Shown here: piece after piece, positions 8,132 through 27,425 of the stretch | Position numbering within the stretch: the first letter of the stretch is position 1 | How the letters are laid out: the number at the start of each line of letters is the position of its first letter | NCBI GenBank assembly: GCA_903847405.1 | Contig: CAINDP010000188.1 | Location: 1-40,956, forward strand | DNA: 40,956 bases | From: an uncultured Myxococcales bacterium | Lineage (GTDB): Bacteria; Myxococcota_A; UBA9042; DTJE01 | Direction of reading: 5' to 3' | The notes under the pieces: model-generated | Told to the model about the DNA's origin: nothing | The model's input: only the letters and a program-made list of their open reading frames with translations | The model's database searches: none | Position numbers and translations under genes: made by a program

Positions 8132-10669
8132 CTAGGGAAGCCCCGAGCCCGCCCGGGCCGCCGCTTCTTCGGCCCGCAGTTCATCCAGGGCCTTCCGGGC
8201 GGACGCCGACGAAGGATCCAGGCGCACCGCCCGTTCGAATTCCCGGATCGCCTCGGCTCGACGCCCTTCCTCCCTCAGCAGGAAGGCGCGCTGAAAGGAC
8301 GTCGCCGGCACGTCGGGGAAGGCCCGATCCGCCCGGGCCAGTTCCTCGAACGCCCTGCCCGGATTGCCCAGCATGCGGGCCTTGGAGGCCAGCAGGTGAT
8401 GCACCAGGGCCGTGCGATACCGGTCCTTCGCCACCTTCGGCCACAGTTGCGCGATTTCGACGTCCATTTCGTCCCAGCGCCGCAACAGCAGCAGGCAGCG
8501 GGCGGCCCACAGGCCCGTGTCGGCGTCGCCGCCCCGCTGTTCGGCCTCGCGGAACATCGCCAGGGCCTCCAGGTGCGAATCGCGGGCCCAGTAGATCTGG
8601 CCCTGGAGGTACCACCCCCCGGGTCGATCGGGGTACTGGGCCAGCAGGCGGGTGGCCAACGGCTCGGCATCGGCCGGCCGCGCGGCGTCGAGGTAGGTCC
8701 GGGCCAGGCGCTCCAGGAGGTCCGGGTCCTCGGGTTGGACGGCCACGCGAGCCTCCAGCAGGGCTTCCAGGCGCGGCAACCGGCGCTCCCGATGCAGCCG
8801 CAGCAGGTAGCCCTCGAGGTCCTCGTCACGCCCCGAAAAGACCGCCAGGACGTCCGCCGGACGGAGGGGCGAAGCGTCCAGGGCGCGCCCGATTTCGACC
8901 CGCTTCAACGGGTGGGCATCGAGGACCTCCCGGTAGCGCGTCACGGCGTCCTCGAACCGGCCCGCGGCCGCGTCGAGGGCGGCGATGGTCAGCCCGGCGG
9001 GAAGCGATCCGGGGAACAGGACCAGGGACAGGCGGAACAGGTCCTCGGCCCGCTCCAGTCGCCCCTGGGCCAGGGCCAGTCGGCCGCCCAGCCACGGCAG
9101 CCGCGTGTCCACCGGATGCAGGCGCACCTCCGCGCGCAGACGTGCCTCGGTGGCCTCGGCGGCCGCCGCGGCGTCCAACGAGCCCTGCCCCGCCGCCTCC
9201 AACCGCGCTTCGGCCTCCCTCCGATCGTTCCGGCTGGCCCAGGAGGCAACGGGAACGGCAACCAGGGCCAGCAGCGCCAGGACGGACAGGGTCGCCACGG
9301 TCCGGATGCGGTCCGCGCGCGGGGACGACTGGACGGCTGGACCCGTCCTCCGGACCAGCACCCCGATCACGGCGGCCAGCGGCAGGGCCACACCCGGGAC
9401 TTCCAGGCTGAAGTCCACCAGGTTCTGGGCCGCGACGGCCAGCACGCCGAAGGCCGCGGCCATGTCGGCCGGGCGGCGGGAACTGCGCAGGACCAGCCTT
9501 CCCAGGAGGAAGGCGAACACGCCCGCAAGCGCCAGACCGGGAACGATGCCCCAGTCGGCCAGGGCCTGGAGCAGCCCGTTTTCGGCATAGTCGAACGTGA
9601 AATCCGGGGCGAAGTCGTTGTAGGCGGCGAACGCGGTCGCGAAGGCTCCCCGCCCGACACCTGCCAGCGGATGGTCCCGCAGCAGGGTCAGGACCGGGCC
9701 CCAGGGACCCGTCTTGGTCCGCCACTGCTCGGGCATCAGCGAGCCCTGCCCCAGTTGCTGCAGCAGTTCCTCGAAGCCCAGGACCACCACCAATCCCACG
9801 GCCGCCAGCAACAGCAGTTCCAGGACACGAACCGCCGTGCGCGGTGGCCGACGGCTGTCCCCGGGACGCAGGGCGCGGATGGCCAGGGGCAGCGCCAACG
9901 CCAGCGCCAGGAGGATCGCGCCCCCGCCCCGGGACAGCGTCGCGATGCTGCCGGCCGCCGTGGCAAGAGCGCCGGCGCCGAACAGCAGGCGCTGGCGGCG
10001 GGATTCCGTGTCGATGGACAGAGACAGGAAGACGAAGGTCGCCAGGTTCAGCAGGCCCGCGGCGTGGTTCCCGTTGACCAGGGTCGTCAGGAACCCGCCC
10101 CGGGCCGTCGTCGCACTGGCGTAGAGGCCCAGGAGGTCCCGGGCGCCGCTCATCCTGGACCAGGCCCCCAGGGCCGCCTCGGCCAGTCCCAGTACCGCCG
10201 TCCCGACCAGGATCCACCGGGCATGCCGCTGGCGGCCCGCGAGGTTCGCCGCAACGACCAGCACCAGGGCGCACAGAACCAGGTTCACGGCCTCCCGGGC
10301 CGAGGCCGGCGGATCGGCGGACAGGGCCCAGTAGGGGTCGGGAACCCCCACCTCGACCACCGACCGCAGGACCCGCTCGGCGGTCGTGCCGCCCAGGGCA
10401 TCGACCACGATCGGGCCCAGGGGCGCGGCCTGGAGCAGGGTCAGCGCGGCGGCGACCAGCGACAGGATGGCGAACCCGTCCACCGCCAGCCGATGCCGCC
10501 GGAGGATCCCGCGCAGGGTGAATATCAGGAAGGTGCCGGCGCCGAACGAGGCGATCAGGACGTGCGTCGCCGGAAGCACCCCGCCGAGAAGGACGACCGC
10601 GACCGCAAGGAACGCCAGAAGTCCCGCGAGGGCCAGGTTCGACAGGGTGAACCGGTCGTCACCGGGCAT
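8132..10669 (-). CDS. O-antigen ligase-like membrane protein with C-terminal TPR domain
   Basis: An 845-residue protein in two halves. Residues 1 to about 475 hold about 12 membrane helices and a periplasmic loop with the Wzy_C-type features (SRGGG, then HPLAGVGRGAF and ENGLLQALADWG). Residues from about 490 to the end are soluble and made of helical repeats with TPR periodicity, the last being clear (AFLLREEGRRAEAIREFERAVRLDP). Ligase/polymerase proteins with TPR tails are known, and some act as O-oligosaccharyltransferases on proteins. It overlaps the upstream glycosyltransferase gene by 11 bp, so the two are probably translationally coupled. ATG 10669 is preceded by GGAGC. The acceptor (lipid A core, lipid or protein) is unknown. 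Confidence 0.8.
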   Translation of the reverse strand: MPGDDRFTLSNLALAGLLAFLAVAVVLLGGVLPATHVLIASFGAGTFLIFTLRGILRRHRLAVDGFAILSLVAAALTLLQAAPLGPIVVDALGGTTAERVLRSVVEVGVPDPYWALSADPPASAREAVNLVLCALVLVVAANLAGRQRHARWILVGTAVLGLAEAALGAWSRMSGARDLLGLYASATTARGGFLTTLVNGNHAAGLLNLATFVFLSLSIDTESRRQRLLFGAGALATAAGSIATLSRGGGAILLALALALPLAIRALRPGDSRRPPRTAVRVLELLLLAAVGLVVVLGFEELLQQLGQGSLMPEQWRTKTGPWGPVLTLLRDHPLAGVGRGAFATAFAAYNDFAPDFTFDYAENGLLQALADWGIVPGLALAGVFAFLLGRLVLRSSRRPADMAAAFGVLAVAAQNLVDFSLEVPGVALPLAAVIGVLVRRTGPAVQSSPRADRIRTVATLSVLALLALVAVPVASWASRNDRREAEARLEAAGQGSLDAAAAAEATEARLRAEVRLHPVDTRLPWLGGRLALAQGRLERAEDLFRLSLVLFPGSLPAGLTIAALDAAAGRFEDAVTRYREVLDAHPLKRVEIGRALDASPLRPADVLAVFSGRDEDLEGYLLRLHRERRLPRLEALLEARVAVQPEDPDLLERLARTYLDAARPADAEPLATRLLAQYPDRPGGWYLQGQIYWARDSHLEALAMFREAEQRGGDADTGLWAARCLLLLRRWDEMDVEIAQLWPKVAKDRYRTALVHHLLASKARMLGNPGRAFEELARADRAFPDVPATSFQRAFLLREEGRRAEAIREFERAVRLDPSSASARKALDELRAEEAAARAGSGLP

Positions 10670-18354: not shown

Positions 18355-18999
18355 CTACGACAGGACCGGCTCGATGCGATCCGCCCAGGTCTTGCGGTAC
18401 CGCAGGCCGCACGGCGTTTCCCGGCCGTCCCGCAGCAGCGGCTGGGTGCAGGTGGCCTCGCTGTCGGTGAAATGCAGGCGCCCGCCGCAGCGGCAGACCC
18501 ACCCGATCACCCGGGCCGGATTCCCGGCCACCAGGGCGAAGGGGGGGACGTCGCGGACGACCACGGCGCCCGCCGCCACGAAGCAGGCCTCGCCCAGCTC
18601 GTGGCCGCACACGATCACGGCGCCCGCGCCGATGGAGGCGTCCTTCCGGACGATCGTGCGCTGGTAGGACCCGCGGCGGGCGATGGCCGCCCGGGGCAAC
18701 GGGGACGACAGGTTCGTGAAGGTCATCGACGGGCCGCAGAAGACGTGGTCCTCCATCACGACGCCGTCGTAGACGTTCACGTTGTTCTGCAGCTTGCAGC
18801 CGATGCCCATCACGACGTCGGCGCCGACAAACACGTTCTGTCCCAGGTTGCAGCCCGCGCCCAGGCGGGCCCCGGCCATCACGTGGGCGTGGTGCCAGAT
18901 GTGCGTCCCCGGGCCGATGTTCGGGTCGCAGCGGCCGTTGGCTTCGGTCTCGCCGTCCAGGATGGCGGTGCCGTGGGCGAAATAGGGCTTTGCGGACAT
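18355..18999 (-). CDS. wbpD: WbpD-like sugar N-acetyltransferase (left-handed beta-helix)
   Basis: A 214-residue hexapeptide-repeat acetyltransferase. The strip from about residue 25 to 150 has the beta-helix repeat, including GQNVFVGADVVMG, KLQNNVNVYDGV and FCGPSMTFTN, the run seen in WbpD proteins. WbpD acetylates the C3 amine of UDP-2-acetamido-3-amino-glucuronate. After the helix comes a C-terminal tail with Cys169, Cys171, Cys184 and Cys197, which may form a small metal-binding unit. ATG 18999 follows GAGGTGA; longer upstream starts would run into the epimerase gene. It sits between the epimerase (2 bp) and wbpE (18 bp). Confidence 0.85.
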   Translation of the reverse strand: MSAKPYFAHGTAILDGETEANGRCDPNIGPGTHIWHHAHVMAGARLGAGCNLGQNVFVGADVVMGIGCKLQNNVNVYDGVVMEDHVFCGPSMTFTNLSSPLPRAAIARRGSYQRTIVRKDASIGAGAVIVCGHELGEACFVAAGAVVVRDVPPFALVAGNPARVIGWVCRCGGRLHFTDSEATCTQPLLRDGRETPCGLRYRKTWADRIEPVLS

Positions 19000-19001
19000 G
19001 G

Positions 19002-20012
19002 TCACCTCGTGGGGCGTCCGGACCGGGCGCGCTCGCTGCGCACCGTCTGGACGATGTCGGGATGGTCCAGGAACCAGCGGGCGAAGGACGCGATTCCGTC
19101 CTGCAAGGACACCCTCGGCCGGAAGCCCACGGTCGCTTCCAGCGCCGAACAGTCGGCCCACGTCGAGGCCACGTCGCCCGCCTGGGCCGGCAGCAATTTC
19201 CGCAGGGCGGGCCGGCCCATCGCGGTTTCAATCAGGTGCAGCAGCGTGTCCAGCCCCTGGGGAGCGCCCGCGCCCACGTTGAAGCGCCGCGCGCCGTCCA
19301 GCCCGGGGTGGAACAGGGCAGCGCACACCGCGGCGACCACGTCGTCCACGTACGTGAAGTCCCGCTGCATGTTGCCGCCGTCGAACAGCGGCACGGGCTC
19401 GCCGGACGCGATGGCCTCGGCGAAGGTCCACACCGCCATGTCGGGCCGCCCGAAGGGGCCGTACACGGTGAAGAAGCGCAGGCCGATCGTGCACAGCCCG
19501 TGGGTCGCCGTGAAGGCATGGGCCATCAACTCGCCCGCGCGCTTGGTGGCCGCGTACAGGCTGACCGGCGTGTCGGCGCGGTCGTCCTCGCGCCAGGGCA
19601 TGGCCGTCGAATCGCCGTACACGCTGGAGGACGAGGCGTACACGACCCGGGGCCTGCCATGGAGGCGGGCCGCCTCCAGCACGGCCAGCGTGCCCAGGAC
19701 GTTGGACCGCTCGTAGGCGAAGGGATGCTCGACCGAGGTCCGCACGCCCGTCCGGGCCGCCAGGTGCGCGACCAGGTCGGGCCGGTGGGTCGCGAACAGG
19801 GCGTCGGTGGCCTCGGCATCAGCCAGGTCCTGCACGACGTCGGTGTACCCGGGGGTTTCCTGCAGGCGACGGTGGCGCTGGGCCTTCAGCGACGGGAACG
19901 CGCACGGGTGCAGGTCGTCCACGCCGACGACCTCGTGCCCGTCGGCGATCAACCGCAGGGCCAGGTGGTACCCGATGAATCCGGCGGTGCCGGTGACCAG
20001 GACCTTGGCCAT
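19002..20012 (-). CDS. NAD-dependent epimerase, UDP-glucuronate 4-epimerase-like
   Basis: A 336-residue extended short-chain dehydrogenase. VLVTGTAGFIGYHLAL is the NAD-binding loop; YASSSSVYG and YAATKRA (Tyr-x3-Lys) give the catalytic triad; LRFFTVYGPFGRPDMA is the stretch typical of UDP-glucuronate 4-epimerases. The product would be UDP-galacturonate, made in the cytoplasm as a precursor. Start is ATG 20012, and the promoter TTGACC-N18-TACGAT stands just upstream. It is first in a unit with wbpD and wbpE. UDP-glucose 4-epimerase or a related activity is possible but less like the motif. Confidence 0.83.
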   Translation of the reverse strand: MAKVLVTGTAGFIGYHLALRLIADGHEVVGVDDLHPCAFPSLKAQRHRRLQETPGYTDVVQDLADAEATDALFATHRPDLVAHLAARTGVRTSVEHPFAYERSNVLGTLAVLEAARLHGRPRVVYASSSSVYGDSTAMPWREDDRADTPVSLYAATKRAGELMAHAFTATHGLCTIGLRFFTVYGPFGRPDMAVWTFAEAIASGEPVPLFDGGNMQRDFTYVDDVVAAVCAALFHPGLDGARRFNVGAGAPQGLDTLLHLIETAMGRPALRKLLPAQAGDVASTWADCSALEATVGFRPRVSLQDGIASFARWFLDHPDIVQTVRSERARSGRPTR

Positions 20013-20074
20013 GAAGCGGTACCCCCCGGGGCCGGCACGCCAACCGCCCGTTGCGATGCGCCCGTGAAGGCAGG

Positions 20075-20104
20075 ATCGTACCCGTCGCGGGCCCGCCGGG
20101 TCAA
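20075..20104 (-). promoter_or_regulatory. Sigma-70-like promoter for the epimerase-wbpD-wbpE operon
   Basis: On the minus strand TTGACC (20104-20099), an 18-bp spacer and TACGAT (20080-20075) lie about 63 bp upstream of the start. The -35 overlaps the stop codon of the transporter gene. Confidence 0.55.
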
Positions 20105-21024
20105 ACTGCCGCAGGCGCGGAGCGTGACGCACCGAAGGCCGACAGGATCCCCGTCCCGATCAGCACCAGGACCATGGCGCCGATCTGCACGGCCATCGTC
20201 ACGGTGTCGAACCCCGCCCACTCCTGGAACAGGGCCACGCCGGCCAGGGCCGGCAGGATCACCGTCGCCACGGTATAGATGGGCGCCACCACCACCGCCC
20301 GCCCCTTCTGGAACCCGAACTGCTGCAGCACCATCGACCCCGCGTTGCCGCCGATGACCAGCACCAGCAACGGCAAGGTGGCGAACCGCGTGAACATCGA
20401 CGCGAAGAAGCCGCCTTCCACGTCGGTCCCCAGGCCCGCCATCATCAGGCGCGCCGCGATCGTCCCCAGGGAGGCCGCCGCGCCCGAGGCGATGCCGCAA
20501 GCCACGTCCGCCGCCCGCCACGACGCCTTCACGGAGGCCAGCACGGGCAGGATCACCAGGGCCATCATGCCCGCCAGGAACACCAGGGCGCGAGGCTGCA
20601 CGGCCAGGGCCAGGGCATCGGCCGCCGCCAGGGGCTGCGGGTCCACGGGATGCGTCGCGCCCAGGATCGCGATGCCCGCCACCACCAGCGCGATCCCGAA
20701 GGCCATCGGCCGCGAGATCGTCTCGTGCAGGTAGAAGTGCGAAAACGCCGCCAGGACGACCATGCCCACGCCGGCCATGGGCGCCACCAGGGACATCGTT
20801 CCCAGGCCCAGGGCGATCCACAGGAAGACGATCTGCACGTTCGTCAGCAGGAATCCCACCAGCCAGGTGCGGTTCGTCAGGAAGTTCTTCAGGCTGCGCA
20901 GGGCGCCGGCACCCTCGATCGAGGGCACTTCCGAGGCGCCCTTCTTTTCCAGCGCCAGGCCGACGTTCAGGAGGCTGAAGGCCAATGCCGCCAGGCCGAT
21001 CGACAACAGGGTGCGAGGTTCCAC
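20101..21024 (-). CDS. DMT-superfamily transporter (EamA/NIPA-like)
   Basis: A 307-residue membrane protein with about nine to ten helices in two similar halves, as in drug/metabolite transporters. The first half contains NVGLALEKKGAS and NRTWLVGFLL, the second has GGNAGSMVLQQFGFQKG. The EKKGA segment near the first helix is reminiscent of NIPA-type proteins. The start is GTG 21024 with GGAGGG upstream, and a TATGCT -10-like box lies at 21066-21061. The substrate is unknown; polyprenyl-linked amino-sugar export by small DMT proteins is known, but this one is larger and shows no specific link. Confidence 0.7.
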   Translation of the reverse strand: MEPRTLLSIGLAALAFSLLNVGLALEKKGASEVPSIEGAGALRSLKNFLTNRTWLVGFLLTNVQIVFLWIALGLGTMSLVAPMAGVGMVVLAAFSHFYLHETISRPMAFGIALVVAGIAILGATHPVDPQPLAAADALALAVQPRALVFLAGMMALVILPVLASVKASWRAADVACGIASGAAASLGTIAARLMMAGLGTDVEGGFFASMFTRFATLPLLVLVIGGNAGSMVLQQFGFQKGRAVVVAPIYTVATVILPALAGVALFQEWAGFDTVTMAVQIGAMVLVLIGTGILSAFGASRSAPAAV

Positions 21025-21069: not shown

Positions 21070-22143
21070 TCACTGGTCGCCGAACCGATCCTCTTTGACA
21101 TGGCAGTAGGGCGTGCCGCCCTTGTGCTGATAGTAGTCCTGGTGGTAGCCCTCGGCGGGCCAGAAGGTCCCGGCCGGCACCAGGCGCGTGGCGACCCGCA
21201 GGCCCCGGCGTTGCAGGCGCCCGATCAGGGATTCCACGACGTTCTTCTGGTCCTCGTCCGTGTAGAACACGACCGACCGGTACTGGTCCCCGATGTCCGG
21301 CCCCTGGCGGCCCACCTGGGTCGGGTCGTGGATGTCGAAGAACAGTTTCGCCAGTGCCTCGTAGGTCGTCTTCGACGGGTCGTACACGACGTGGACCGTT
21401 TCGGCGTGGCCGGTTTCGTGGTTGCTGACCTGTTCGTACGTCGGCTTCTCGACGCGGCCACCCATGTACCCCGACTCGGCCGTGATCACGCCCGGCGCCT
21501 TGTCCAGGAAGTACTCGACGCCCCAGAAGCAGCCGCCCGCGAAATAGGCGTCGGCGGTCTTCGGCGTGTCCGGGTTCGCACAGGTCCCGGCCAGGGCCAC
21601 GCCCGGCGGGGGACTGGTCCGGGCGGCACCGGCGGCCGGGGTCGCGCCGTCCGTGGCCGCGTCGGGAACAAAGTCCAGCGAGATGGAATTCACGCAGTTC
21701 CGGGTGTTCCGGGACGTGAACCCCTCGCCCTTGAAGACGTGCCCCAGGTGGGCGCCGCATTTCGCGCAGACGATTTCCGTCCGCATGCCGTCGGCGTCCG
21801 GGATTTCCTTCACGGCGTCCGGCAACGCCGAATCGAACGACGGCCAGCCGGTACCCGACTCGAACTTCGCGGTGGACGGGAACAGCGGGACGCCGCAGCG
21901 CTTGCACTGGTAGGTCCCGCTGTCATGGGTCTTCCAGTACTTGCCGGTGAAGGGCATCTCGGTGCCCTTGTGCACGATCACCCGTTCTTCGTCCGCAGTC
22001 AGCTTCTTCCCGTCCATTCCGGATCCCTCCGCACCGCCGTGCCGGTCGTCGGCCCCGGCCGGTGAAATGAAGTCCACCAGCAGCATCGCCACGCCCGCCA
22101 GGGCCGCGGCCAGCAACACGGCCACGATCGTCCTGGGATTCAT
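21070..22143 (-). CDS. msrBA: Exported MsrB-MsrA fusion, peptide methionine sulfoxide reductase
   Basis: A 357-residue fusion. An N-terminal hydrophobic segment (about 5-25) looks like a signal peptide or anchor. Residues 45-160 form MsrB: four zinc Cys (80, 83, 126, 129), ESGTGWPSF and RNCVNS with the catalytic Cys150. A Pro/Ala linker leads to MsrA (from about 195): AGGCFWGVEYFL with catalytic Cys205, GYMGG and a C-terminal HKGGTPYCH. The two domains reduce R- and S-methionine sulfoxide. The order is B then A, and the location would be periplasmic. ATG 22143 follows GAGGG. Longer in-frame starts exist, but they arise from repeat sequence upstream and are rejected. Electron donor partners are not seen in the window. 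Confidence 0.9.
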   Translation of the reverse strand: MNPRTIVAVLLAAALAGVAMLLVDFISPAGADDRHGGAEGSGMDGKKLTADEERVIVHKGTEMPFTGKYWKTHDSGTYQCKRCGVPLFPSTAKFESGTGWPSFDSALPDAVKEIPDADGMRTEIVCAKCGAHLGHVFKGEGFTSRNTRNCVNSISLDFVPDAATDGATPAAGAARTSPPPGVALAGTCANPDTPKTADAYFAGGCFWGVEYFLDKAPGVITAESGYMGGRVEKPTYEQVSNHETGHAETVHVVYDPSKTTYEALAKLFFDIHDPTQVGRQGPDIGDQYRSVVFYTDEDQKNVVESLIGRLQRRGLRVATRLVPAGTFWPAEGYHQDYYQHKGGTPYCHVKEDRFGDQ

Positions 22144-22237
22144 GATTGCCCTCGATGTCAACGACAGCCGGCGATCCCGCGATCCCCGGAGCCAACAACG
22201 TGGAGTCGTTTCCTCGGAGTGGCAAGGCGTCGCCCCG

Positions 22238-22400
22238 AAAATGGGGACAGACACCATTTTTTCGAGCGTCAGCAGTCGGTCGTCAGAACAATGACTTACC
22301 TGAAACCACGAGGGAGGGAGGGGAGAACTTCCGGTTTCCATCGTGCCGGCGGTTGACTGTCGTTACGGGGACTTGCGAATAATGGTGTCTGTCCCCATTT
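22238..22400. repeat. Inverted pair of AAATGGGGACAGACACC repeats
   Basis: A copy of the repeat at 22238-22261 (reading AAAATGGGGACAGACACC) faces an inverted copy at 22381-22400 (reading GGTGTCTGTCCCCATTT). About 119 bp without a convincing gene lies between. The right copy touches the stop codon of wbpA. The layout resembles a small non-autonomous mobile element or a paired extragenic palindrome. Confidence 0.75.
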
Positions 22401-23698
22401 CAGCTCTTGACGACCTTGGGGTGGGGCTTGCGGTAGACGCCACGGGTGTCGATGACCAGTTTCGCCCGCTCCAGCAGGTCCACCCAGTCGATGCCGTCGT
22501 GGTCGGTCGAAATCAGCACGGCGTCGTAGTCGCCCGCCTTGTCCAGCGGCGTCGAAATCCGTCCGGCGAACTGGCCGTGCTCGCGGGAGGGCGGCACGAC
22601 GGGGATGAAGGGATCGTGGTAGGACACCTCGACGCCCTGGTGCTCCAGCAGTTCCCACAGTTTGTAGGACGGGGACTCCCGGGCGTCGTCCACGTTCTTC
22701 TTGTAGGCCAGGCCCACCATCAGGATCTTCGACCCCGCCAGCCCGCGCCCGCGCTTGGAAAAAGCCTCCATCGTCTGCATGACGACCCAGTGGGGCATGG
22801 ACGTGTTCACCTCGCCCGCGGTCTCGATGAAGCGCGACGCCACGTCGTACTCCCGGGCCTTCCAGGTCAGGTAGAACGGGTCGATCGGGATGCAGTGGCC
22901 GCCCAGGCCCGGCCCCGGCGTGAACCGCATGAAGCCGAAGGGCTTGGTCGCCGCCGCGTCGATGACCTCCCACACGTCGATGCCCATGCGGTTGAACACG
23001 ATCTTCAGTTCGTTCACCAGGGCGATGTTCACCGCCCGGAAGGTGTTTTCCAGGATCTTCGACGCTTCCGCCACCCGCGTGCTGGACACCGGCACGACCC
23101 GCTTGATGACCCGCCCGTACAGCGCCACCGCCGCCGCCAGCGCGTCGGGGTGATCCGCGCCGACGACCTTGGGGATCGTCACCGTCTCGAAGTCCGGGTT
23201 GTTCGGATCCTCGCGCTCGGGCGAGTACGCCATCCAGAAGTCGCGGTCCGCCTTCAGGCCGCTGCGCTCCAGGATCGGCCGCATCACCTCGTCGGTCGTC
23301 CCCGGGTACGTCGTGGACTCCAGCACGATCATCTGGTCCTTGCGCAGGTACGGCACCAGGCTCTCGCAGGACCCGACCACGTACGTCATGTCCGGCTCGT
23401 GGTTGGCCGTCAGCGGCGTCGGGACGCAGATCAGGATCGCGTCGCACTCCCGCGCCCGACGAAAGTCCGTGGTCGGCTGGAAGCCCTTGTCCAGGCACTC
23501 CCGGATGACCTCGTCCGGGATGTGCTGGATGTAAGTCTTGCCGCGCAGCAGGCTGTCCACCTTCGCCGCGTCGGTGTCCAGCCCGATGACCTTGACGCCC
23601 TTGCGCAGGAACGCCGCCGCCAGGGGCAGGCCGACGTAGCCCAGGCCCAGGACCCCCACGATCTCCTCGCCGCGCTCGATCCGTTCCAGCAGTTCCAC
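22400..23698 (-). CDS. wbpA: UDP-N-acetylglucosamine 6-dehydrogenase, WbpA type
   Basis: A 432-residue nucleotide-sugar dehydrogenase. GLGYVGLPLA (17-26) is the NAD loop; ESTTYPGTTDE, KILENTFRAVNIALVNE and GPGLGGHCIPIDP (catalytic Cys269) follow in order. The enzyme oxidises C6 of UDP-GlcNAc in two steps to UDP-GlcNAcA, the first step of the route completed here by WbpB, WbpE, WbpD and WbpI. The N-terminal MELLERIERGEEIVGV is characteristic of WbpA rather than Ugd. GTG 23698 follows GGGAGGAC. It is 46 bp downstream of the fused transferase/dehydratase. Related GalNAc dehydrogenase (WbpO) remains possible. Confidence 0.9.
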   Translation of the reverse strand: MELLERIERGEEIVGVLGLGYVGLPLAAAFLRKGVKVIGLDTDAAKVDSLLRGKTYIQHIPDEVIRECLDKGFQPTTDFRRARECDAILICVPTPLTANHEPDMTYVVGSCESLVPYLRKDQMIVLESTTYPGTTDEVMRPILERSGLKADRDFWMAYSPEREDPNNPDFETVTIPKVVGADHPDALAAAVALYGRVIKRVVPVSSTRVAEASKILENTFRAVNIALVNELKIVFNRMGIDVWEVIDAAATKPFGFMRFTPGPGLGGHCIPIDPFYLTWKAREYDVASRFIETAGEVNTSMPHWVVMQTMEAFSKRGRGLAGSKILMVGLAYKKNVDDARESPSYKLWELLEHQGVEVSYHDPFIPVVPPSREHGQFAGRISTPLDKAGDYDAVLISTDHDGIDWVDLLERAKLVIDTRGVYRKPHPKVVKS

Positions 23699-23744: not shown

Positions 23745-26222
23745 CTACGCCCCGTCCCGCCCCCGGTCCCCGTCCGCCCCGCCCACGTCGGGGGGCCGCA
23801 GCCCGATGTCCATCGCATCCATCAGGGCCCGGATCCCCGCCCGGTCCGCCCCCCGCGCCCGGTCCACCAGGTCGTCGACCTGCCGCATCCAGGCGTCGAA
23901 ATCCCGCAGTTCCGGCCGCGACACGAACACCTTGTCCACCTGCGTCGGCAGCACCCGATCGCGGTCCAGCAGCAGTTCCTCGAACAGTTTTTCCCCGGGC
24001 CGCAGCCCCGTGAAGGCGATCGGGATTTCGCCCTCCCGGAAGCCCGACAGCCGGATCATGTCCCGGGCCAGATCCACGATCCGGATGGGCAGGCCCATGT
24101 CCAGAACGAAGACCTCGCCCTCGCGACCGATGGTGCCCGCCTTCAGCACCAACTGGGAGGCTTCCGGAATCGTCATGAAGTATCGCACGACCTCCGGGTG
24201 TGTCACCGTCACGGGCCCGCCGCGGGCGATCTGGTCGCGGAATACCGGGATCACCGACCCCCGGGAACCCAGCACGTTGCCAAAGCGCACCGACGCGAAC
24301 CGGGTGCCCCCGCCCCGCGCCGCCAGCCCCCGGACGATCAGCTCCGCGACGCGCTTGGTCGCGCCCATGACCGACGTGGGGTTCACCGCCTTGTCGGTGG
24401 ACAGCATCACGAACGTCTGGGCGCCGTGGATCTGCGCCAGTTCGGCCACGTTGCGCGTGCCCGCGACGTTGTTCTCCACCGCCTCGAAGGGGTTTTCCTC
24501 CATCAGAGGCACGTGCTTGTAGGCCGCCGCGTGCAGCACGACCTCGGGGCGGTGCAGGGCGAACGCGCGTTCCAGCTTGTCCCGCGCCCGCACGTCCAGC
24601 ACCACGGCCACGGTCTGCAGGTCCGGCCGCAGCCACGCCATCTCGCCGCGGATGTGGAACAGGTTGTTTTCGTCCTTGTCCAGCAGGATCAGCAGGGCCG
24701 GGTCCAGCGCCGAGATCTGCCGGCACAGTTCGGACCCGATCGAACCGCCCGCACCGGTGACCAGCACGCGCTTCCCGCCGTACACGGGCCCCAGCAGCGG
24801 ATCGTCCTCGGCCAGTTCCTGGACCTCGCGCCCCAGCAGATCCTCGATGGCCACGTCGCGCACGGCGGCCACCTGGGCCTGCCCCGAGATCAACTGCGAC
24901 GCCCCCGGCAGGACCAGCACCCGCACGCCGCGCTGGGCACACAGTTCCATGACCTCGCGCTTGCGCTGCAGCGGCAGGTCCGAAATCGACAGCAGGACCT
25001 TCGAGAACGCGGTGCGGGCGTGCACGTCACCCAGGTCGTCCAGCGTGCCCAGGACCTTGCGCCCCTCGATCTCGCTGCCCAGCTTTTCCCGGTCGTCGTC
25101 CACGAATCCCACCAGGGACAGGCCCAGCGCCGGACGCAGGCGGATTTCATGGGCGATGGCGCGGCCGTTGTCCCCGGCGCCGACCACCAGGGCCTTTTCG
25201 GACGCGGTGGCGCTGACCGGCGCGGCGGTCGTCGCCTCGTGCAGCCAGCGCCGCAGGAAGCGGATGCCCATCATGCCCAGGAACGACAGGACGGCCTCCA
25301 TCAGGATGATGCTGATGGGGATGTGGTAGTAGGGGTTTTCGGTCGGCAGCAGCCGGAAGGCCAGGAAGACGACCGTCACGGACGCGACCGCCTTGGCGAA
25401 TCGCCCCACTTCGTACAGCGACACGTAGCGCCACATCACCCGGTACACGCCGAACACCAGGTTCATCGCCAGGCGCGCCAGCACCGTGTAGGGCAGCAGC
25501 AGGATCAACTGCTTGCGGGAGATGTCGGGCAGCGGGAAGTCGAACCGCAGGGCATAGGCCCCGGTGAAGGCGATCACCACCACCAGGGCGTCCGACACGA
25601 CCTGCAGGACGCGCCCGGTGCGGCCCGCCGCGTGGACCACGGCGATGTAGACCGTGGCCAGCAGGATCCGGATGTCCTCGACGAACGACCGGCGCTGCAG
25701 GTACAGGTGGTTCAGCCGCAACTTGTGCGGCATGATCTCGCGGATGTAGGTCCCCTCGGGGTCCGCCGACTTCGCCAGCAGGGCGTTTTCGTCGAAGTAC
25801 GTGATGGACGCATAGTCGGTGACACCCGGCCGCACGGACAGCACCTGCCGCTGCTCCTGGTCGTACAGGGCGACGTACTTCGGGACCTCGGGACGCGGTC
25901 CCACCAGCGACATGTCGCCGACCACGACGTTCCACAGTTGCGGGAACTCGTCCATCTTGCTGGCGCGCAGCACCCGGCCGACCGCCGTGATCCGGGGGTC
26001 GCCCGCGACCGTCAACTGCCCGCCCAGACGCGGGGCGTCCACGACCATGGTGCGGAATTTCAGGACGCGGAACTCGCGCCCGTTGCGGCCGACGCGCACC
26101 TGGCGGAACAGGACCGGCCCGCGGCTGGTGGCCTTGATGGCGATGGCGACCAGGACCAGGAAGGGGGACAGGATCAGCAGGCCCAGCAGCGACGCGACGA
26201 TGTCGAACAAGCGCTTCGCCAT
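23745..26222 (-). CDS. Fusion of monotopic phosphoglycosyl transferase and WbpM/PglF-type dehydratase
   Basis: An 825-residue protein. Residues 1-205 are a PglC-like phosphoglycosyl transferase: a membrane re-entrant helix near 5-30, FRQVRVGRNGREFRVLKFRTM, the Asp91-Glu92 pair in KMDEFPQLWNV, and SLVGPRPE. Residues 205-330 give about four membrane helices, as in CapD/WbpM. Then comes a nucleotide-binding region from about 343 (ALVVGAGDNG) and the dehydratase from about 484: VTGAGGSIGSE, STDKAVNPTSVMGATKR with Met619-x3-Lys623, the SMK pattern of WbpM/PglF. Each half would be complete on its own. The dehydratase makes a 4-keto-6-deoxy-HexNAc nucleotide, and the transferase places a phospho-sugar on undecaprenyl phosphate, the first step of chain assembly. 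ATG 26222 follows GGAGA. The upstream aminotransferase (6 bp) probably acts between the two activities. Confidence 0.9.
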   Translation of the reverse strand: MAKRLFDIVASLLGLLILSPFLVLVAIAIKATSRGPVLFRQVRVGRNGREFRVLKFRTMVVDAPRLGGQLTVAGDPRITAVGRVLRASKMDEFPQLWNVVVGDMSLVGPRPEVPKYVALYDQEQRQVLSVRPGVTDYASITYFDENALLAKSADPEGTYIREIMPHKLRLNHLYLQRRSFVEDIRILLATVYIAVVHAAGRTGRVLQVVSDALVVVIAFTGAYALRFDFPLPDISRKQLILLLPYTVLARLAMNLVFGVYRVMWRYVSLYEVGRFAKAVASVTVVFLAFRLLPTENPYYHIPISIILMEAVLSFLGMMGIRFLRRWLHEATTAAPVSATASEKALVVGAGDNGRAIAHEIRLRPALGLSLVGFVDDDREKLGSEIEGRKVLGTLDDLGDVHARTAFSKVLLSISDLPLQRKREVMELCAQRGVRVLVLPGASQLISGQAQVAAVRDVAIEDLLGREVQELAEDDPLLGPVYGGKRVLVTGAGGSIGSELCRQISALDPALLILLDKDENNLFHIRGEMAWLRPDLQTVAVVLDVRARDKLERAFALHRPEVVLHAAAYKHVPLMEENPFEAVENNVAGTRNVAELAQIHGAQTFVMLSTDKAVNPTSVMGATKRVAELIVRGLAARGGGTRFASVRFGNVLGSRGSVIPVFRDQIARGGPVTVTHPEVVRYFMTIPEASQLVLKAGTIGREGEVFVLDMGLPIRIVDLARDMIRLSGFREGEIPIAFTGLRPGEKLFEELLLDRDRVLPTQVDKVFVSRPELRDFDAWMRQVDDLVDRARGADRAGIRALMDAMDIGLRPPDVGGADGDRGRDGA

Positions 26223-26228
26223 GGTCTC

Positions 26229-27425
26229 CTAGGCCCCGCCCGGCGCCGATGCGGCGTCCAGGCTGTCGCGCACGGCCGAAATCACGCGGTCCACGTCGGC
26301 ATCCGTCATCCGCGGGTAGATGGGCAGCGACACCGACCGCCGGTACGACGCCAGGGCCGCCGGGAAGTCGTCAGGCTGCCAGCCGTAGCGCCCCCGCCAG
26401 TACGGGTGCAGGTGCAGCGGGATGAAGTGCACCGAGGTGCCGACGCCCCGGGCGCTCATCGCCGCCACGAAGCGGTCCCGATCCAGGCCCCGCAGGCGCA
26501 CCACGAACAGATGGTATGCGTGGCGCTCGCCGGCCGGCGCGTCGGGGGGCAGGTCCAGGCGTTCGTCGCCCGCGAATGCCGCCCGGAAGGCGTCCGCGAT
26601 GGCCTTGCGTCGCGCCCACATCGCGTCGCAGCGCGACAGTTGCCCCAGGCCCAGCGCCGCCGCCGGGTCCGTCAGGTTGTACTTGTAGCCCGGCTCCACG
26701 ACCTCGTAGTACCACTGGGGACGGTCGCTGACATAGCGATCCCACACGTCCCGGCTGATGCCGTGCAGGCGCATGATGCGCATGCGGGCCGCCAGCGCCG
26801 GATCGGCCGTCACGGCCATCCCGCCCTCGCCCGTCGTGATCGTCTTGGTGGCGTAGAAGGAAAACACCGTCACGTCGCCGATCGTGCCGACCATGCGCCC
26901 GCCCGACGTCGCCGGCAGCGCGTGGGCGGCGTCCTCGACGATGCGCAGGCCCCGGGCCGTCGCGATGGCCTGGATCGCCGCCATGTCGCAGGCCAGCCCC
27001 CCGAAATGGACCGGCAGCAGCACCTTCACCCGGGCCGCCTTCGCCGGATCGTCGTGCGCCAGGCGGTCCAGCGTCGCCTCCAGCCCGGCCGGATCCAGGT
27101 TCATCGTGACCGGGTCGATGTCCGACAGCAGGATGTCGCCGCCCAGGTAGCGCACCACCTCGGCCGTGGCGGTGAACGTGTTCGGCGTCGTGACGACCAC
27201 GTCGCCGGGCCCCACGCCCACGGCCTCCAGGGCCAGGTGCAGGCCGGACGTCGCCGAGTTCACCGCCACCGCGTGCGGGGCGCCGACGTACTCCGCGAAA
27301 GCCTCCTCGAACCGCTTCGCCCGGGGACCCGTCGTCACCCACCCGCTGCGCAGGGCATCCCCCACCGCGGCGATCTCGTCTTCCGAGATATCCGGCAGGG
27401 CGAAGGGCAGAAACGGTTGATCCAC
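26229..27425 (-). CDS. DegT/DnrJ aminotransferase, PglE/ArnB-like
   Basis: A 398-residue PLP aminotransferase. [13 protein letters not shown] and GWVTTGP at the start, [18 protein letters not shown], and [15 protein letters not shown] with Lys194 as Schiff-base lysine. The start and the GWVTTGP segment are of the ArnB/PglE kind, which aminates C4 of a 4-keto-6-deoxy sugar nucleotide. Its gene ends 6 bp before the fused dehydratase/transferase gene, whose dehydratase would provide that substrate. GTG 27425 has AAGGAG upstream. It is distinct from wbpE (17.2 kb), so the window encodes two aminotransferases for two sites. The exact sugar is inferred. Confidence 0.85.

Follow-up and report, generated by a model that had tools for sequence, protein, structure and literature searches.

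The window, by which we mean the whole 40,956-nucleotide stretch of DNA analysed here, carries on its minus strand a gene of 825 codons (23745..26222) encoding an 825-aa protein, predicted to be bifunctional, in which a phosphoglycosyl transferase (PGT), four membrane helices, a CoA_binding_3 domain and a dehydratase follow one another, as judged from the open reading frame, Pfam matches, orthologues and AlphaFold2. The frame is unbroken from its ATG at 26222 to its stop codon at 23745-23747; a ribosome-binding-like AGGAG can be read directly just 5' of the ATG, and 6 bases separate that ATG from the end of the preceding aminotransferase gene. Third-position GC lies between 0.89 and 1.00 in all 55-codon blocks of the gene, the junction included, so there is no sign of a frameshift. 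That an assembly or sequencing error joined two genes, conceivable in that the window's genome is a draft in 273 contigs, is extremely improbable given the same joined frame in five separate assemblies and uniform codon usage over the junction. The frame-error check proposed in a preliminary description of the locus accordingly fails to refute the fusion, which five other genomes also hold in one frame: it is real, conserved and lineage-restricted.

The N-terminal domain is recognizable as a monotopic PGT. Pfam Bac_transf covers residues 3-193 (25644..26216, minus strand; E 3e-59, 199.8 bits against a cut-off of 27), and the structure of this domain matches WbaP (Z 20.3, rmsd 1.4 Å over 152 residues) and PglC (Z 19.0). 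AlphaFold2 and motif positions predict a re-entrant membrane helix at residues 2-32 (26127..26219, minus strand) with a Ser19-Pro20 break, and motif positions and the orthologue alignment place the catalytic Asp91-Glu92 dyad at 25947..25952 (minus strand); Ser19-Pro20 is present in the window protein, while P20, D91 and E92 are invariant across six orthologues. Domain score, Asp-Glu dyad, re-entrant helix and fold thus all fit the monotopic PGT superfamily (PF02397), whose activity we predict for this domain.

At the other end of the protein, residues 486-768 (23919..24767, minus strand) form a PglF/WbpM-type UDP-GlcNAc 4,6-dehydratase domain, assigned by Pfam (Polysacc_synt_2, E 3e-113), by its best PDB sequence match (PglF/WlaL, 298 bits) and by Foldseek, which matched it to C. 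jejuni PglF 5bjw with a TM-score of 0.94 by target length and 42% identity. The active-site signature TDKxnMx3K, which has been tabulated for PglF/WbpM enzymes acting on UDP-GlcNAc (PMC8987622), lies at 24354..24398 (minus strand) by motif position, and its residues T609, D610, K611, M619 and K623 are invariant across the six orthologues. With this signature, an N-terminal module of the expected kind and the catalytic fold, the protein fits the PglF/WbpM dehydratases, and activity on UDP-GlcNAc is predicted. The preliminary description had named a complete PglC-like domain at the N-terminus with Asp91-Glu92 and a complete dehydratase at the C-terminus with Met619 and Lys623; both domains are indeed complete, and all four residues lie where it had placed them.

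The same description spoke of residues 205-480 as linker and membrane part and called for structure prediction there. This region is not a mere linker: it comprises four predicted transmembrane helices within residues 203-332 (203-227, 233-256, 269-291 and 303-332; 25227..25616, minus strand; AlphaFold2 and hydropathy), followed by a Rossmann-like CoA_binding_3 domain at residues 340-462 (24837..25205, minus strand), for which Pfam gave a match at 257-428 (E 3e-9) and structure comparison a match to 3nkl (Z 18.5). Pfam, AlphaFold2 and the structure matches together indicate that this four-helix and CoA_binding_3 module is what a PglF/WbpM protein natively carries as its N-terminal half. The structure-search lists were filled by matches to the PGT and Rossmann domains, and none of those matches paired the four-helix part with WbaP. 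AlphaFold2 gave a mean pLDDT of 87 and a pTM of 0.59 for the whole chain, and 89 and 0.64 for residues 1-473; with pTM in this range, the relative placement of the domains is uncertain.

Directly upstream of the fusion gene lies a gene for a DegT-family sugar aminotransferase (26229..27425, minus strand), characterized by profile and PDB comparisons and predicted to aminate the dehydratase product. Its PDB scores were 279 bits for ArnB, 216 for Spr1654 and perosamine synthase, and 83 for 4ztc, whose C. jejuni chains we take to be PglE; on that assumption, PglE is not among its closest solved relatives in the PDB comparison. Against the PseC model it scored 380 bits, below the cut-off of 423.5. 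A sugar aminotransferase is therefore present, as had been described, but it is ArnB/PseC/Spr1654-like rather than PglE-like. The residue that corresponds to Spr1654 Tyr84, PseC Phe84 and ArnB Trp89 is Phe in this enzyme; whether a 2-acetamido sugar fits is reported to depend on this position (PMC5936713). The aminotransferase gene adjoins the fusion in every one of the five fused loci for which flanking sequence is available (the sixth, in G005, falls outside this count owing to a contig edge at its flank), and is divergent in one of them, in G007.

The gene next downstream of the fusion encodes a UDP-sugar 6-dehydrogenase of the nucleotide sugar dehydrogenase family (22400..23698, minus strand; profile matches), which presumably belongs to a different sugar branch. 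This second UDP-sugar branch in the window comprises the dehydrogenase, a Gfo/Idh oxidoreductase, a second DegT protein and a hexapeptide acetyltransferase; the window also encodes a Wzx-like flippase, Wzy-like proteins and several glycosyltransferases, and from these genes together a Wzx/Wzy-type surface polysaccharide is the likely product.

The domain order given in the preliminary description is correct, and homology searches found the fusion in one frame in six genomes, all in one Myxococcota family and spanning three genera. The five orthologues, from genomes classed as Myxococcota/'Deltaproteobacteria', share 89, 76, 69, 68 and 67% identity with the window protein. No further single-frame fusion was found among the approximately 1,870 genomes sampled from five phyla (Myxococcota and the phyla of Roseateles, a Flavobacteriales genome, Moorella and an Acidobacteria genome), a survey that would miss fusions made from very different PGT subfamilies. 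Likewise, when GTDB species genomes were scanned with the junction region, the fused loci recovered were those same five, with separate genes elsewhere; and in 20 regions checked ORF by ORF, most of which were matches with open frames of at least 900 codons, PGT and dehydratase never shared an ORF. A Rhizobium plasmid match that covered 93% of the query proved to be two genes.

Within the family, six of 13 genomes carry the fusion, one (G008) carries an unfused dehydratase, one (G004) an SDR only, and five are without such a dehydratase; the supposition that all close homologues might be separate proteins therefore does not hold. The unfused dehydratase of G008 is 66% identical and is accompanied in the same region only by a different PGT. 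The equivalent cluster of G004 holds a 353-aa SDR dehydratase and is without the PGT, the membrane part and the adjacent aminotransferase. In phylogenetic trees the fused proteins group together by their PGT parts (88/82), and the fused dehydratase parts form one clade with the G008 protein (100/100). G008 falls inside the fused clade with partial support (91/96), but a tree holding all fused proteins together was not rejected (p-AU 0.365), so that the data fit both a secondary loss of the PGT part in G008 and a G008 lineage that never had it. The simplest reading is that the fusion arose once, in one Myxococcota family, when a PGT gene was joined to the dehydratase gene following it.

Unfused relatives present the same arrangement with separate genes. 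In many bacteria the gene of this PGT subfamily is followed directly by a PglF-type gene, both with ordinary stops and starts, and among 71 unfused loci with enough flanking sequence a DegT aminotransferase gene is directly upstream of the PGT in 63 and a dehydratase downstream of it in 27. The order aminotransferase–PGT–dehydratase recurs in Pseudomonadota, Acidobacteriota, Bacillota and Thermodesulfobacteriota; operons of Roseateles, Rubrivivax, Moorella, Syntrophaceae and Acidobacteriota have the same gene families, order and direction as the window, but there PGT and dehydratase are separate, each with its own stop and start, whereas in the window the last two are joined. In many Burkholderiales pairs the two genes are in frame with each other, separated by one stop codon (for example in Roseateles, G379). 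Programmed read-through of this in-frame stop was considered and ruled out by the features of the junctions: ordinary TGA, TAA or TAG stops, variable spacing, a new ATG and, in a near-identical relative, a different frame. In loci from Bacteroidota, Deinococcota and Bacillota (L061-L113), the PGT gene of this subfamily is preceded directly by a DegT gene even when its surroundings hold no PglF-type gene, and this suggests a PGT subfamily for 4-amino sugars. From the conserved gene order, a UDP-4-amino-6-deoxy sugar can be predicted as the substrate of this subfamily, which occurs in several phyla.

We consider it probable that the fusion protein is an inner-membrane enzyme with two activities, separated by an aminotransferase step, and that it initiates a surface polysaccharide by way of a UDP-4-amino sugar. 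The C-terminal dehydratase would convert UDP-GlcNAc to UDP-2-acetamido-2,6-dideoxy-xylo-hexos-4-ulose (UDP-4-keto-6-deoxy-GlcNAc), the aminotransferase of the adjacent gene would place a 4-amino group on this product, and the N-terminal PGT would transfer the sugar phosphate from the UDP-4-amino sugar to undecaprenyl phosphate. Because the dehydratase product is a 4-keto sugar, which is not a usual PGT substrate, the fused activities would be steps 1 and 3; and because the aminotransferase step intervenes, the product of one domain would not be handed straight to its partner. The preliminary description held that the fusion links the making of the precursor with the first step at the membrane, and to that extent we agree, but the fused steps are not consecutive, amination by the product of the neighbouring gene falling between them. 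Both activities, the order of the steps and the substrate, along with dimerisation and any channelling, are what we infer.

There is a precedent for these reactions in separate proteins: PglF, WcfR and WcfS together produce undecaprenyl-PP-AATGal in E. coli (PMC13063421). The B. fragilis set of PglF/UngD2, WcfR and WcfS, which makes the AATGal start of capsular polysaccharide A, has the same three activities as those predicted here, in three proteins rather than two. The favoured PGT substrate is UDP-2-acetamido-4-amino-2,4,6-trideoxyhexose, with its C4 configuration lying beyond what the sequence can specify; this choice follows from the relatives of the aminotransferase and its Phe site, the absence of any PglD-type acetyltransferase over the cut-off in the fused genomes and the PglF/WcfR/WcfS precedent. 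A hexapeptide acetyltransferase and an epimerase of the same cluster could alter the sugar first.

Two other routes from the 4-keto sugar were weighed against this one. WbpM-type enzymes can feed FucNAc or QuiNAc synthesis, so the keto group might be reduced rather than aminated, with the SDR encoded at 19002-20015 making UDP-QuiNAc or UDP-FucNAc for the PGT and the aminotransferase serving another branch. The SDR is epimerase/reductase-like and is kept in three fused relatives, but it is the aminotransferase, not the SDR, that is kept directly beside the fusion and beside the PGT subfamily across phyla, and we regard reduction as improbable. Nor do we think it likely that acetylation of the 4-amino group precedes the PGT step, giving UDP-diNAcBac, as in the Campylobacter PglF–PglE–PglD–PglC route, even if this prospect is somewhat better. 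A PglF-type dehydratase, a PGT domain that is PglC-like in structure (Z 19) and the hexapeptide acetyltransferase in the cluster (18355-19161) would all suit that route. However, this acetyltransferase scored 64 bits against a cut-off of 160.8, and no NeuD/PglD-type protein (TIGR03570) exceeded the cut-off in any of the six fused genomes, which are drafts; in G004, which is without the fusion and its aminotransferase, the acetyltransferase is still accompanied by the UDP-sugar dehydrogenase and the second DegT protein; and the adjacent aminotransferase is not PglE-like. Its resemblance to ArnB, PseC and Spr1654, together with the absence of a PglD-type protein over the cut-off, makes a free 4-amino sugar likelier than diNAcBac.

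Fusion of a PGT to a sugar-modifying enzyme, which the preliminary description took to be known, is indeed a described class: Bi-PGTs are PGTs fused to other functional domains (PMC10942596, citing O'Toole et al. 2021). The window protein belongs with them in having a second functional domain in the same polypeptide, encoded by a single ORF in six genomes. Like Neisseria PglB, in which a PGT is joined to an acetyltransferase, it fuses a PGT core to a sugar-modifying enzyme, but its partner is a complete membrane-bound PglF/WbpM dehydratase that would act at an earlier step, with amination between. The literature that we searched gave no account of a PGT–dehydratase fusion; the 2021 catalogue of PGT fusions lay outside that search, and a prior mention there is possible. 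From PglF, WbpM and CapD, with which it shares four membrane helices, CoA_binding_3 and an SDR domain with TDKxnMx3K, the protein differs by the addition of a whole PGT at the N-terminus. With the large PGTs (WbaP, WcaJ and EpsZ) it shares a PGT core and a module of the four-helix and CoA_binding_3 kind, but its order is PGT–module–dehydratase, in contrast to module–PGT without a dehydratase; with the module C-terminal rather than N-terminal to the PGT domain, it is not a large PGT.

The sharing of this module between large PGTs and PglF-like dehydratases, whose functions are unrelated, has been called puzzling, and UMP inhibition has been reported for WbaP (PMC10942596). Since the two kinds of enzyme that use the module here flank a single copy, the fusion is a natural construct in which to ask if the module links the two steps or controls them. 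It is a speculative and on balance doubtful proposal that the protein is a two-enzyme assembly whose one module serves both catalytic domains. If it were true, and if CoA_binding_3 senses uridine nucleotides as has been reported for WbaP, by-products would feed back on both the entry step and the step that commits the sugar to the membrane, with the aminotransferase docked between them.

The strongest competitor to a bifunctional enzyme of this kind is that the genes were joined by an accident of operon structure without functional effect, the two halves working as if apart; adjacent unfused genes are common, and in G008 a close relative has an unfused dehydratase. Against this, the fusion persists in six genomes from three genera, with orthologues 67-89% identical and all catalytic residues invariant, and we see neutrality as a credible but less probable account.

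Three other genes of the window were noted. At 21070-22341 (minus strand), the methionine sulfoxide reductases MsrB and MsrA are encoded in one protein with a hydrophobic leader in front, and this gene is found, whole or in part, at the equivalent position of the cluster in three relatives. A NIPA-type transporter family protein (PF05653) is encoded within the polysaccharide cluster at 20101-21024 (minus strand) and is kept in G001. Finally, the gene at 8132-10669 (minus strand) encodes an 845-aa protein that combines a Wzy_C-type ligase/polymerase region with C-terminal TPR repeats.
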